The notes under the pieces are model-generated. The model saw only the letters and a program-made list of their open reading frames with translations. It was not told the origin of the DNA and did not search any database. Positions 5,198 through 19,580 of a DNA stretch of 21,962 nucleotides are shown here, one piece after another. Both the position numbers and the translations under genes were made by a program. Every line of letters starts with the position of its first letter. Positions within the stretch are counted from its first letter, which is position 1. Source of the DNA: Sistotremastrum niveocremeum HHB9708 (taxonomy: Eukaryota; Basidiomycota; Agaricomycetes; Sistotremastrales; Sistotremastraceae). The stretch is from NCBI GenBank assembly GCA_001630475.1, contig KV419435.1, positions 1 through 21,962 on the forward strand, given 5' to 3'.

Positions 5198-6614
5198 ATG
5201 TTCGGAACTCTTAAAGCCTTCGCTTTCATCGCTGCTACGCTCTCCACAAGTGTTGTCCTTGGTGCCGCAACCGGTTCTGATGGCGGTGTGATCATCACTC
5301 TCCCTCCCCGCTCCAAGGATGTCGGCATCAAGAAAGTTCCTGGTATGTGTTATTCACTCTTTTCATAACGTAGTCCTAACACTACTCGCAGACGCTGCTC
5401 ACCCTTACATCGCACCTGGACCCAATGACCAACGTGGCCCGTGCCGTAAGTCATCTCCGAAATACCTAGAAAGTCACATAATAAATGGCCCTCTTAGCTG
5501 CCTTGAACACTCTGGCAAACCACGGTTACATCCCCCGCAATGGTATCGCCTCCTTCGAAGAAATCCTCGCTGGAACACGCGAAGGCTTCAACATGGACCG
5601 CGATCTCGCAGGCTTCCTGGCCGGTTTCTCCATGGTAAGAGCTTCAAATTTGTTCAATCACACACTTCTGACAATATATCTAGATGGCCCGCGGAAATGC
5701 TTTCCTGAACAAGCTCTCCATCGGTTCCGTCTCCCCTCAAATCCCAGTCGTCCCTGGCGCCATCGATGGCCCTGCTCCTCCCGGCGGTATCGCCAAGCAT
5801 GATCGCTTTGAAGGCGATGTCTCCATGACCCGCCAGGACTTCAACATCGGTGATGATGTTCACTTCCAAATCAGTCTCTTCGACGAGGTTTGTCTAATCC
5901 TCCTTCTCAATTCCCGATTCATTAATCATGGATTATATAGTTCCTCTCCGCTATTGAAGAATTCGGCGATGACAATGCGCTCCACGGTCCCAAGTCCATC
6001 GTTAACATGAAAGTCATGCAAGAGTTCAAGTTCCAACGCTTCCAGGAATCCCAGGCTGCCGATAAAACCGTCTCTTTCCACTCCAGCCGCATCGCCTCCT
6101 CTTACAACGAAGCTGCTTTCATCCTCACCTTCTTCGCTAACGGTGAGATTCTCCACCTTTCTCTTTGTAGGCGATATACTAAAACAATGCCCTCAGGAAC
6201 CGACGGTCTCCTGAGCAAGCAAGCTTTGACTTCCATCTTCCAAAACCAGACCTTCGCTCCTAACTGGTTCCGTCGTTCCTCCCCCGGTACCTTCGACTTC
6301 ATCGTCGACACCGCCGCCGAAGTCCTCGCTCCCCACCCCATCCAACCCGGTGCCAACGTCAACGGTGTATACGTCCTCGATCCCACTGACACCAGCGTAC
6401 GTATTCCCCTCCCTCCACCAAATATTCCTCGCTGACATTGAATTTTATACAGTGCAATGCCGCATACTCTGACTTCGTCCTTAACAACCTCCCCCACACT
6501 CTTAACAACGTCACCCAGCCTACATTCAAGAAGAACATCCAGACCTTGTTGAAGATTGTCGCTACTCCCTTCGGATGCCCCGAGCTCCTCCCTGCTGGCC
6601 CCGTCGGTCAATAA
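5198..6614 (+). CDS. Unspecific peroxygenase (heme-thiolate peroxidase, chloroperoxidase family), secreted, long type
   Basis: Seven exons: 5198-5342, 5392-5445, 5498-5634, 5684-5887, 5941-6142, 6197-6396, 6453-6614. The six introns are 49-56 bp with GT..AG ends, and splicing gives 367 aa. Residues 1-22 form a hydrophobic signal peptide, so the enzyme should be exported. The PCP motif is at 65-67, with Cys66 as axial heme thiolate. E155-G156-D157 lies in FEGD followed by SMTR. R230 and E237, seven residues apart, fit the acid-base pair of long peroxygenases. C315 and C356, 41 apart, fit the conserved C-terminal disulfide. NQT, NGT and NVT sequons suggest N-glycosylation. Family members use hydrogen peroxide to oxygenate or halogenate organic substrates; the actual substrate cannot be inferred. 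The start was chosen for the signal peptide and the TATA box upstream. No partner genes lie beside it. Confidence 0.93.
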
Positions 6615-15104: not shown

Positions 15105-15130
15105 GTACTGTACTAATATGACAGGTCCGG
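15105..15130 (+). repeat. Left terminal inverted repeat
   Basis: It matches the reverse complement of 19555-19580 at 25 of 26 positions. It includes the likely target duplication (TA at 15106-15107, or GTAC at 15105-15108). Confidence 0.9.
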
Positions 15131-15210
15131 TTTGTCCCATGTCCCGAAGGACAAACCGGACCGGAAAAAATCGTCCTGTCCGTGTCCCGAGAGTGAAGTC
15201 CGCCGGGACA
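15124..15210. repeat. Left subterminal TGTCCC array with a perfect hairpin
   Basis: TGTCCC occurs at 15133, 15140 and 15183, its complement GGGACA at 15205, and TGTCCG at 15177. The 14 bp arms 15124-15137 and 15149-15162 (GGTCCGGTTTGTCC and its exact reverse complement) flank an 11 nt loop. Such arrays near transposon ends usually bind the transposase or host factors. Confidence 0.7.
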
Positions 15211-15462
15211 GAAACTGCGTGACGTCACAAACTGTGACAGCTCGCGTCTTGCTTCAAGGCTTCTTAGAGATCTCAGCGCAAGGACCAGCAAGGACGCGTT
15301 TAGGCAGCTTGGTGCTGCCTTTTCTATGACAAAGACTCGACTTGGTGTCGAGATCTTTACTCTGTGAGAAGCGAATCAACTTGGCGTTGTTCGTCGACTC
15401 GGATTTTGGGTGCAGGGGATGATCTATAGATTACCATGTACGCTGAACAAAAGAAATATGAT

Positions 15463-18400
15463 CTAATCTTCATCTGAATCACTGTTGTAGTCGCATCGAC
15501 ACCATTCGGCAGCTGTGTAACGCTGAGTAGGCTTTCTGGATCGAGTCCCTCGCCGAACATCTGCACGAGGTACTGACTCTGGCTCGGCCTTTGCTCCCCC
15601 CTTCCCATCGGCGACGTCTTCTTCATCGCTCAAATCCATCTCATCACAATCAATATCGTCTTCAATGTCTTCAAACCCGGGCACTTCGAAGTCATCCTCA
15701 TCATCAGAAAGCTCGTATTGCACCCGTTTCTTAGGCGGTGGTGCGTTCATGGCCTTCTTGATTGCCTTCTTGACACTCATGGACGAATCAAGATCCAGAA
15801 GATCGCTTCCGTCGTACTGCTCATCGTCCTCCGGAGTTTCGAGATCTTCAGGCGTTGGACCGGTAGGAATCGTAGCATCCCGTGGCGCCGTGATCTCGGC
15901 GTAAAAGTCAGGGTTGTTGATCTTCATATCTGACAAGGCTTCGCGAGCTTCAAAACTGGACAGAGAAGCATGGGAGAGGTTGAAATTGCCAGCCTGACAC
16001 ATCTCGAAAGCCTACTCGTGTCAGGTCTTGTTCATACCGTAAGCGTGAAAATCATACCTTCTTAACGAGTTCTTCATTGTTGATCACCCGATGGGCAGAC
16101 ACCATCCACTGTACACACCGGTCTCGCAGAACACCGACTCGCTTCTCCAGATGCACACCCTCAGGTGCTGTGCCGCCGTCGAGTTGGCGCATGGTATCGT
16201 CGACAACATCTTTGTGCGCACATCGTTGAATACTCAGCTTCAAGACTCTCTGGATACCGACATCGCAAGGCTGGAAGAGGCCCGTGCACCCCGCGGGAAC
16301 ATACATGACAATAATCCACGGATATTCTTTCTTCATCCAATCACGAAATTCTTGGGACCTGTGAACGCTCCAACAGTCGATCAACCACATGCATCTTTGC
16401 GTAGGACGCTTGTGTAGCCTCCTTTGGCGCTGAAAGTAAGGTACGAGAATGAGCTCGACGTAACGCTTCATCGTTAACAAAGTGGACCAGTAGGTATGAC
16501 CACCTGAATCGTATATGATGCCTATTTCATCGGCTTCATCACGAGATCGGGCCTTGGTAGAAGGCTGGGATTCCTTGGTCTTGCCCGCAAAGACGGCTTG
16601 AAAGGGGAGAGCTTCGCCTGAGGCTGAAACACCAACAACGAGGGTGAAGGCTCGCTTCTCCTCGGTCCCAAGCACATCGACCTGCTTGACCCCGCTCTCG
16701 TTCCAGGTCAGCTTTGGTCCCATGGCATATATGACTTGCGTTTGATCTGTATTGACTAGGAATGCACCGTCATCGATTGACGCCTCACGAATGGAGGCTG
16801 CCATTCGAAGGAATGCTTGCGATAAAATGTTGTCAACGTCCTCTGGAGTTTTCTGGGCAGCTCGAGTTCCACATCGGACAGACCACTTGAGTGTCTTCTT
16901 CAGGTATCGACGGACATATGGAATGGTGCATTTAAACTTTTCGCCGTTCTTGTTTGGCTTCTCAAAGATCTCAGGACACATGTTGGTCAAGATTCCGACC
17001 ATAATGCCTCGCACGGAATTGATATCGAGAGAAACACCAGTCTTTCGAATGTTCCCAAGTGTCAGACGAATTTTACTCGCAGCTGCTGGATATGATTCCT
17101 AATGTATGGGGGATTAGGCGAGATCGTTCCAGCAAAGACATGACTCACCAAGATATTCTTTCGCTTTGTCGACGCTCCTGGTTTGTTGCGTGCGGCAACC
17201 TCCTTCAGTACCGCATCTGTCCACACCCATTGATCTTTGATATCCTTCCGACGCCAGTCCGACAGTCGTTGCGCATGGAAGTTGCCAAAAATGCCCTTGC
17301 TTGTGTTTCGAAGTCGGGCAGCAATTTTGGCATGACACCAAGGTCGACCCTCTGCAGCAACGGCTTCCTCAATCATGATCCAGGTAAGTGGTGCATAATA
17401 TCGCTTGTTTCTTGCATTTTCCGCTCGCCGTTGAGCTCTAGTTCCGTTTGGATTGGCCTTACGGCCATTCGGATGTGTTTTCGTCTTTTCGGCTTCGAAC
17501 TGCAGATACGGGCGAGTCGCGTTGGCAACATCGTTTGGACTGGATTTCTTGGAATCAGAATCATCCACCGGATTCAATGTCTATTTGAGGAGTTAGCGAG
17601 GGAGAAGTTGCGTAAGGAACGACTCACTCGTATCGGCAACTTTTTAATCTTCCGTTTCGTGCCAGGCACCCTCTCTCCTTTCAAGACCTCGGCATCCTTT
17701 ATCTTCTCTCGTTGCTCTGCCTTTCGTACGCGATCGTATTCTCGAATATTGGCTCGGTTGGCTTGTCGGACGGCTTCCTGATGTGATTGCCATGTTGAGC
17801 GATCGTTCTTGTCTCGTTCAAAGCCTCGAGAGACTTGGGCCTGATATACATCTGACGAGACCTTTTGGAACGGTAATACAGGCTGTTTCAATTGTTTCTG
17901 AGACGACTGTGATGACGATTTGGATCCAAAACTGGTGACAGCAGGAGTGACAAAGTGAGCAAATGGGTTGTTGGAGGAGAGTGTCGGTTTGATATCTGAG
18001 GCTTTTGATTCTTTGTCGATTGGCACGGAGGTTTGTGTTTCAGTTTCTGTGATCCCGTTGTCGTCATGATCATCACACAATAGGTTCTCAGCGGCTGGCA
18101 GTGATGTCTAAGTAAAGTCAGCTCCAAAATCTTTGCTTCACTCTTGATAAACTGAACGTACCCAATCCAGAGTCATCTGTGCGAGTTCGTAACACAGTTT
18201 GATACGTTCGCACCCAATGTACGTGGCTCCTGATGACGCAAACAATGGAACCTGAGTTGGCAGGTAATGATGCAAAACGGCGTTGAACGCGAACAGACCA
18301 CAGGATGTGGCGTCAGTCTGTCTGCCCTTGTCCAACTTGGTGAGAGCGAATGGAGTCGACTCTTTCGAATGCTGATTAATCCACCACTGCAGTGCATCGT

Positions 18401-19307
18401 GTTCAGCAGCGCGAATCTCATTACCACGCGGATCTGCATAGGCCAGTGTGCGCTCTCGAAAATTGATCACATAGGCAGTGTAGTGATCACCGTTGATGTG
18501 CATGATACCACCAACACTCGTGATTTCACCATCGCTGACGTCCTGACCAACAGTTCGGATGTGCGAACAGCGGTTCGATGTTTGATATTCGTCGGGACGC
18601 TTGGATGCGAATATGATGGACTCGAGGAACTCGAGGTTGGCAATATGAAAGGGAATTGCAAGTGATCGGCTAGCTTTTCTCAGAAGATGATTTCCGAGTT
18701 CACAGAGCTGGTGGATGTTGCTGCCGGTGAGTCGTTCGTCGGACAAATATGTTGTCAGCTCGTACGCGGAGCCTAACGAACATGTAGGCCCTTGCAGTGA
18801 GCCAAGCCAACGGATCTTCTCCAACATTGTCTTCAGTTGACGGAGGGGCGGTTTGTCAATTCCTTTCTTCTGAGCATTGAGAACCTTCTGTTCCGACCAC
18901 CGAAGACTGCCACGCCATGAATCACGGTGCATACGGATAAGATTCAGTCCCTCCCAATACGTGATGATCCAGATTGGCAGCCGACGATGCCTACTTTTTC
19001 CGGCAATGTGGAGTGGCATGACTGAGTGCGATGAAGTGAGGATGTTGGGGTTTGTCTCGAGATAGTCTCGCAGTTCTTGAAGCAGTGTGAGAGAGGGCAC
19101 CGATAGGTCTGCGAGTTGATGCGTGCTTGATATTTTCTCGGGTGGCTCAGACGACATCCATTCGCGCCAAGGAACGCGAACATGTGGGTCTCTAGCAGGA
19201 GAAGGAATTTTATCGAGGAGTAAGAGACTACTGATAGAGGAATCATTTGAGTAGAGGAGGTCCTTGGGCACAAGGAATTTGACAAGCGGAGGCTGGTCCA
19301 CATCCAT
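15463..19307 (-). CDS. Ulp1-like protease / helix-turn-helix / DDE_1 transposase fusion protein
   Basis: Exons on the minus strand: 19307-18162, 18107-17628, 17580-17149, 17098-16058, 16011-15463. Introns are 54, 47, 50 and 46 bp, all phase 0, with GTACGT, GTGAGT, GTGAGT and GTATGA donors. The product is 1215 aa. Exon 1 is a C48 (Ulp1/SENP) cysteine protease with His275 (GDHYTAYVI), Asp292 (ADPRG), Gln330 and Cys336 (SCGLFAFN); Gln-Cys spacing is six, as in Ulp1. Next comes a charged linker with KRKIKK (533-538), then a helix-turn-helix-like region (about 604-653). The DDE_1 core has Asp804 (NTDQT), Asp927 (LIDCW) and Asp965 (QPCDVGIQR), with 37 residues between the last two. The tail (1086-1168) is very acidic, followed by RRGTRSRKP. 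It should cut and paste its own element in the nucleus. The protease may act on SUMO-like conjugates or process the polyprotein; which one is unknown. Confidence 0.88.
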
Positions 19308-19423
19308 TTTGGTGGAGGGCGAGTAAAAAGAACAAGGTGTATTATTGGTACAAATAATATAAAACTATCTACGAATGCCACTGTACGACAAGGACCCAAA
19401 CAAACAAAAGGACAACAAAACTT
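19308..19423 (-). promoter_or_regulatory. 5' leader and promoter region of the transposon gene
   Basis: About 115 bp separates the ATG at 19307 from the right-end array. The minus strand reads ATAGTTTTATATTATTTGTACC near 19344-19372, an AT-rich stretch that could act as a TATA element. The start context (CCAAAATGG) is good. The array of GGGACA motifs immediately upstream means that transposase binding could also repress this promoter. Confidence 0.35.
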
Positions 19424-19545
19424 TGTCCCGTTGTTGTCCCACGGGCTCTTGTCCCGATATCCCCGCCGCCGCCAAATTTTCCCTTGTCCGTTGTCCCAAC
19501 GGGTTTCGCCCAACCGCCGGAACGTCTCAAAAATGTCCGTGTCCC
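19424..19545. repeat. Right subterminal TGTCCC array
   Basis: TGTCCC occurs at 19424, 19435, 19450, 19492 and 19540, with TGTCCG at 19485 and 19534. The 12-mer TGTCCGTGTCCC (19534-19545) is identical to 15177-15188 in the left end and in the same orientation. It is likely a binding array for the element's transposase. Confidence 0.7.
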
Positions 19546-19554
19546 AAGGCTCAG

Positions 19555-19580
19555 CCGGACCTGTCATATTGGTACAGTAC
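19555..19580 (-). repeat. Right terminal inverted repeat
   Basis: It is the reverse complement of 15105-15130 with one mismatch. It includes the likely target duplication (TA at 19578-19579). Confidence 0.9.

Follow-up and report, generated by a model that had tools for sequence, protein, structure and literature searches.

Ginger1, Mutator, CACTA and Crypton elements have been reported to carry Ulp1/C48 protease domains (PMC2836005, PMC2528002, PMC3212892). Such proteases occur in several unrelated transposon groups, where they are sometimes encoded by genes that are reversed or separate. For Ginger, it has been suggested that the Ulp1 and OTU domains act in transposition or repair (PMC2836005), and the joining of Ulp1 to transposases other than the one described below is already known from Ginger1 and CACTA. 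Within the pogo superfamily, Tigger elements have catalytic spacings of DD29-36D and nearly all Fot elements have DD35D (PMC7386202), and a host factor, HMGXB4, has been described that connects SUMO with a Tc1/mariner element (PMC10138897). The word 'protease' is absent from the main text of two large surveys of the pogo and Tc1/mariner elements (PMC7386202, PMC7325037). Fungal transposons carrying TET/JBP genes are described in a paper that makes no mention of mariner, Ulp1, protease, pogo, DDE_1 or CENP (PMC12730594), and a further paper makes no mention of C48 or peptidase (PMC10799480). Among the open papers listed in literature searches, covered by titles and abstract openings, none was recognised that reports the fusion of a C48 protease with a Tc1/mariner/pogo transposase, in line with the original prediction, which knew of no such element. 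The combination is new within the literature covered; priority is not thereby established.

The locus compared here with these systems lies in a window of 21,962 nucleotides from Sistotremastrum niveocremeum, which forms the start of contig C42 in a 34.7 Mb assembly; the copy within it is called C42 hereafter. Short introns and a Peroxidase_2 gene point to a fungus. Its gene runs from 19307 to 15463 on the reverse strand and consists of five exons which, once four GT..AG phase-0 introns are removed, encode 1215 residues with a single, terminal stop (Table 1). This frame had been proposed from the letters of the sequence and was reproduced exactly by a splicing and translation check, with the seven proposed catalytic residues (H275, D292, Q330, C336, D804, D927 and D965) all at the positions given. 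Gln330 we take to be the oxyanion-hole glutamine of the C48 family. The first ~190 residues of the product form an N-terminal extension that precedes the protease domain.

Table 1. Features of the element and of its gene in the window
Feature	Position	Strand	Remarks
Whole element, TA to TA	15106..19579	-	4474 bp; inverted ends, TA on both sides
Inverted end, gene's 3' side	15106..15130	+	TA is the first two bases; agrees with the other end at 25 of 26 positions; pattern search
Inverted end, gene's 5' side	19555..19579	-	TA is the last two bases; end comparison and pattern search
Exon 1	18162..19307	-	Residues 1-382; N-terminal extension and C48 (Ulp1/SENP-like) protease
Intron 1	18108..18161	-	54 nt, GT..AG, phase 0; marks where protease and transposase part are joined
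Exon 2	17628..18107	-	Residues 383-542; linker, without Met
Intron 2	17581..17627	-	47 nt, GT..AG, phase 0
Exon 3	17149..17580	-	Residues 543-686; presumed DNA-binding region; position conserved among copies
Intron 3	17099..17148	-	50 nt, GT..AG, phase 0
Exon 4	16058..17098	-	Residues 687-1033; DDE_1 core
Intron 4	16012..16057	-	46 nt, GT..AG, phase 0
Exon 5	15463..16011	-	Acidic C-terminal tail and stop codon
Catalytic His275 codon	18483..18485	-	Invariant in 5/5 aligned copies
Catalytic Asp292 codon	18432..18434	-	Invariant in 5/5 aligned copies
Gln330 codon	18318..18320	-	Invariant in 5/5 aligned copies
Catalytic Cys336 codon	18300..18302	-	Invariant in 5/5 aligned copies
Catalytic Asp804 codon	16745..16747	-	Invariant in 5/5 aligned copies
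Catalytic Asp927 codon	16376..16378	-	Invariant in 5/5 aligned copies
Catalytic Asp965 codon	16262..16264	-	Invariant in 5/5 aligned copies; 37 residues between Asp927 and Asp965

The transposase part is identified by its core. The three catalytic aspartates have a DD37D spacing, and the Pfam DDE_1 model matches all five aligned copies, including the window product, in which DDE_3 is also found below its cut-off. A structural model of the DDE region is of middling confidence (pLDDT 65.7), and a fold search with it places the Mos1 mariner transposase first (E 2.2e-5), at low TM-scores of 0.31-0.35 by query length and an rmsd of 12-14. Known DNA-binding families were sought with Pfam in exon 3 of four copies (C43 left out) and in the full window product, and none was recognised; a winged-helix model, HTH_33, matches one of five exon-4 sequences at 0.0027. 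The earlier description of the core as pogo/Tigger-like is thus borne out as regards the DDE_1 core and the TA duplication described below, but not as regards its spacing, which lies outside both the Tigger range and the usual Fot value; no pogo-type DNA-binding domain was recognised. From these comparisons the label appears somewhat too specific.

Assignment of the N-terminal domain draws on the copies jointly. The His-Asp-Gln-Cys set occurs in the order and spacing of the C48 family, as aligned with Ulp1 (1euv), and is invariant among five copies, of which the other four have proteases only 24-47% identical to that of the window. Pfam C48 matches four of the five aligned copies, with a best value of 8.9e-10, and gives no match to the window copy, either with exon 1 or with the full product. 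Likewise, exon 1 of the window used alone against PDB sequences reaches Ulp1 at E 0.17, whereas a profile of the five sequences does so at 4.6e-8. An AlphaFold2 model of the protease has a middling mean pLDDT of 67.7, with blocks of 75-92 over residues 221 to 330 and lower values near the cysteine, residues 331-334 just before Cys336 falling below 50. Ulp1 and SENP structures head the fold search made with this model (E 1.8e-6 downward), the best match having a TM-score of 0.35 by query length and 0.56 by target length, with a large rmsd. By profile and predicted fold, the domain is of the C48 type.

Both domains recur together in the assembly. With the protease exon as query, matches were obtained in C42, C9 (two places), C5, C110, C43 and C35 (one locus in two pieces) and weakly in C51, while the DDE exon retrieved C42, C9 (two), C5, C110, C43 and C35. 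The diverged DDE sequence of C43 returned an identical set of seven loci from the assembly and nothing further, and the Pfam DDE_1 model recovered six, all but C5, and matched nothing elsewhere. At every one of these loci (7/7, a count to be read as at least seven) a protease ORF lies upstream on the same strand. The C51 match (E 1.3e-5) has no visible DDE, and its contig stops ~0.5 kb past the frame. The two C9 placements are identical across 4378 bp, one being truncated by a contig end; the C9 product aligns with that of the window over its full length without a stop, 687 of 1204 positions being identical (57%), and its four introns occupy matching places, intron 2 to within one codon. The C35 copy is broken, with eight stops in its alignment and a Trp in place of the catalytic Cys. 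When the DDE alignment was searched in viral_contigs and in genome_contigs for relatives outside this assembly, 598 and 59 pattern matches, respectively, were obtained, and none was confirmed.

That the two domains move as a unit is indicated by the ends and by unoccupied sites. Inverted ends with TACTGTRC are present in C42, C9, C110 and C43, and self-comparison of C5 and C35 gave none bracketing their genes. A family-wide end pattern occurs at 54 places, against 9 for its reversed control, whereas a 17-base pattern from the end of the element in the window (up to three mismatches) gave 55 against 47 and is uninformative beyond the two true ends. Ten loci were examined for short relatives: two were without such an end, and the other eight reduce to seven distinct copies, each 375-385 bp long and with its ends paired. 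Judged from sequence, these short relatives with similar ends are non-autonomous. In C43, a 4.7 kb element that carries the two domains interrupts a reading frame that we take to resemble a Copia integrase; joining its flanks with one TA restores this frame, and unoccupied paralogues of the site in C18, C37 and C38 are gapless across the junction at 84-87%. Unoccupied relatives were also found for two of the five short-copy sites searched, namely three for the C91 copy (95-97%) and, for the C18 copy, two of full length (78%) and one partial. The flank at the end of the first C9 copy includes 226 bp that are repeated elsewhere in the contig, with identity beginning within one base of the TA. 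The unoccupied C43 and short-copy sites imply that the insertion unit carries protease and transposase together and that the duplication is TA. This duplication is observed at the sites of relatives, and the window copy has TA at both of its ends.

The reading that we favour, by a little more than even chances, is that of a DNA transposon, mobile by cut and paste and of the Tc1/mariner-pogo type, that would encode one protein in its recognised gene. In this protein an N-terminal C48 protease would be followed in turn by a linker, by a region presumed to bind DNA and by the DDE core, and the protease would strip a modifier at the element's ends. The transposase part would bind the ends, excise the element and insert it at TA, as in Tc1/mariner. 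Being covalently attached, the protease would enter each transposition complex, in a way that the product of a separate gene would not, and there it might remove SUMO, or a related modifier such as ubiquitin, from the transposase itself or from chromatin or repair proteins at the ends. Such removal could counter silencing or degradation and favour completion of transposition. The joined frame, the common splicing, the intact catalytic residues and the TA-flanked inverted ends are properties of the DNA; the role of the protease is what we infer. SUMO is proposed as substrate from family resemblance. Consensus psi-K-x-E sites number two in the window product and zero in C9, and by this motif count none is conserved between the two; with so few sites, the transposase itself would be no obvious SUMO target.

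The fusion could be real and the protease a mere passenger, acquired by a single capture of a host Ulp1-type gene and taking no part in transposition, which we regard as unlikely. Capture of ULP domains by plant MULEs has been described (PMC2528002, PMC6117577), and here the protease diverges faster than the transposase, with identities between C42 and C9 of 47% for the protease and 72% for the DDE core. Over ten pairs of copies, pN/pS ranges from 0.475 to 0.787 for the protease and from 0.246 to 0.620 for the DDE core; synonymous sites are saturated, so that selection on the protease is poorly measurable in this way, and the values, though weak, are compatible with constraint. For a passenger, however, decay or loss in some copies would be expected, whereas the protease is present at all of the at least seven DDE loci, its catalytic residues are invariant in five of five copies despite the low identity of the proteases, and the catalytic Cys is lost only in C35, a copy broken throughout. 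The retention of the fusion in five diverged versions within one genome suggests that the protease contributes to the working of the element.

Whether one protein or two are made turns on intron 1. In five diverged copies (C42, C9, C5, C110 and C43) this intron lies at the corresponding place, after the protease domain and 14 residues past an Arg (which in C43 is the second of an adjacent pair), with lengths of 54, 51, 49, 54 and 53 nt, respectively; in each case it is GT..AG and phase 0, with a YTNAY site 10-12 nt upstream of the acceptor. In C5, C110 and C43 it was placed by eye, after which length, phase and motifs were checked, so that judgement is involved. Automatic splice choices in the linkers of these three copies ('introns' of 99 to 258 nt) were dropped as alignment artefacts. 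Retention of intron 1 leads to a stop in C42 (at 18138), C110 and C43 and to a frame shift in C5, and leaves the frame open in C9. One locus might on this account yield two products, a free protease ending at 18138 and acting in trans when the intron is retained, and the fusion when it is spliced. The stops in C42, C110 and C43 are what this scheme would require, but retention in C9 meets no stop and cannot yield a free protease there, and we consider such a dual output distinctly improbable.

Distances between copies in the protease and in the DDE domain are correlated (r 0.97), a value reached by 1/120 labellings, the minimum possible with five copies, as is expected if the two domains have travelled together. 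That the locus is instead two neighbouring genes, their joint being an artefact of reading through the gap between them, is very doubtful: it could appeal to the in-frame stop at 18138 and to the ATG with which C5 exon 2 opens, so that a separate DDE start in C5 is possible on sequence grounds, but the position, phase and length of intron 1 are common to all five copies, and the open frame of C9 rules out, for that copy, a separate protease terminated by a stop like the one at 18138. Moreover, exon 2 contains no Met in C42 or C9, and the single Met of their exon 3 is residue 69 of 144, so that a separate DDE protein in these copies would lack about half of the conserved exon 3. The original prediction of one polypeptide, which an end of the protease at 18138 or a constant separation of the domains would have contradicted, therefore stands at the level of DNA: the stop lies within an intron common to five copies and is absent from C9, C9 matches over its full length, and at all seven DDE loci the protease precedes the DDE domain on the same strand. 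Cleavage of the fusion by its own protease into protease and transposase, also raised in that prediction, is scarcely credible, for although the linker between the domains is long and poorly conserved, Ulp1-type enzymes cut after Gly-Gly, and this pair is absent from residues 383-686 of the window product and occurs once in C9, at 407, where it is unshared.

Taken further, the fused transposon would represent a distinct, undescribed lineage of TA-inserting DDE_1 elements whose transposase requires a C48 protease at its N-terminus. The protease, which occurs at each of the DDE loci found in this assembly, would co-evolve with the core and strip SUMO or ubiquitin at the transposition complex; we consider the case for this whole proposal evenly balanced. 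If it is true, one more transposase superfamily has taken up such a protease, which would point to modifier removal as something that eukaryotic DNA transposons need repeatedly. In the present element the enzyme forms part of the transposase polypeptide, and the superfamily concerned has a simple and well understood TA reaction; this arrangement, together with the uninterrupted C9 frame in the same genome, makes it possible to ask, through one catalytic residue, whether removing modifiers aids transposition.

Among known systems, several share single features with the element. Some Cryptons (CryptonF-2_PS and some CryptonS) likewise carry a C48 peptidase on a mobile element, but use a tyrosine recombinase (PMC3212892). 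MarCry-1_FO, a fungal element, resembles the present one in being Mariner-type and TA-duplicating and in having an additional enzyme; that enzyme, which has a gene of its own, is a tyrosine recombinase and not a protease (PMC3212892). Plant MULE and CACTA elements containing ULP1 similarly have a Ulp1 domain within a TIR transposon, both with transposases of other families than that found here; in KI-MULEs the protease is reversed relative to the transposase gene, unlike here, whereas for CACTA there is mention of proteins that combine Tnp2 with ULP1 (PMC2528002, PMC6117577). Ginger1 comes closer in joining a Ulp1-type protease to a DDE transposase, but its core is Gypsy-integrase-like and its Ulp1 or OTU domain C-terminal (PMC2836005), whereas the present core is DDE_1 and the protease N-terminal, which places the element outside Ginger1. 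With the pogo superfamily of IS630-Tc1-mariner the element shares a DDE_1 core with three Asp, the TA duplication, short inverted ends and a length within the 1.2-5.2 kb of pogo (PMC7386202, PMC7325037). It departs from that superfamily in the size of its product, 1215 aa as against 300-977 aa (PMC7386202, PMC7325037), in having no recognised HTH_Tnp_Tc5, CENP-B_N or HTH_psq domain, in its DD37D spacing and in the C48 protease at its N-terminus.

The complete relative of the window element on contig C43 interrupts an integrase frame, which we take to be Copia-like, and at least three unoccupied copies of this frame, at 84-87% identity, are found at loci L068-L070. At the first of the two placements of the full-length relative on C9, 226 bp of the right flank are repeated in inverted orientation near C9:60 kb with 100% identity, which begins no more than one base from the TA. 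This second occurrence is perhaps an unoccupied site, the left side being past the contig end. Loci L059-L063 and L065-L067 hold seven non-autonomous copies, only 375-385 bp in length, whose ends and subterminal sequence are as in the C9 family, and a pattern search located paired ends of the C110 type spaced ~250-270 bp apart.

The C-terminal tail of the fusion protein is acidic, with a basic RRGTR motif close to its end, and alignment of the C42 and C9 copies identified a segment, ELSD.DDDFEV.GFE, common to both. Elsewhere in the window, two frames match Peroxidase_2, the heme-haloperoxidase/peroxygenase family (E 2.7e-16 and 2e-9), and are probably exons of a single gene.

Coordinates of the element relatives, protease matches and other features
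Feature	Position	Strand or score
C43 relative, in stretch L022 (C43:262500-272300)	3001 and 7694 of stretch	
226-bp repeat, C9	L018 4376-4601 and L072 1011-1236	second place inverted
C110-type paired ends (example)	C4:642923-643192	
C-terminal tail	window 15463-15800	-
Peroxidase_2 frames	window 5485-6435	+
Distant protease, C51	L024 6265-7641 (C51:212270-213646)	
Three open frames, C51	L024 2-5113	-
Peptidase_C48 match	C14:149366-150046	114.6 bits
Peptidase_C48 match	C15:98597-98773	26.4 bits

C51 encodes a distantly related protease of this type, with 25% identity to the one in the window, and the nearby contig end falls before any DDE part could show. The same contig carries what appears to be a family of tandem genes, three similar open frames in succession (277, 508 and 491 aa). 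Two more Peptidase_C48 matches in this assembly (G000), on C14 and C15, lie apart from the DDE loci and are likely to represent host SUMO-protease genes.
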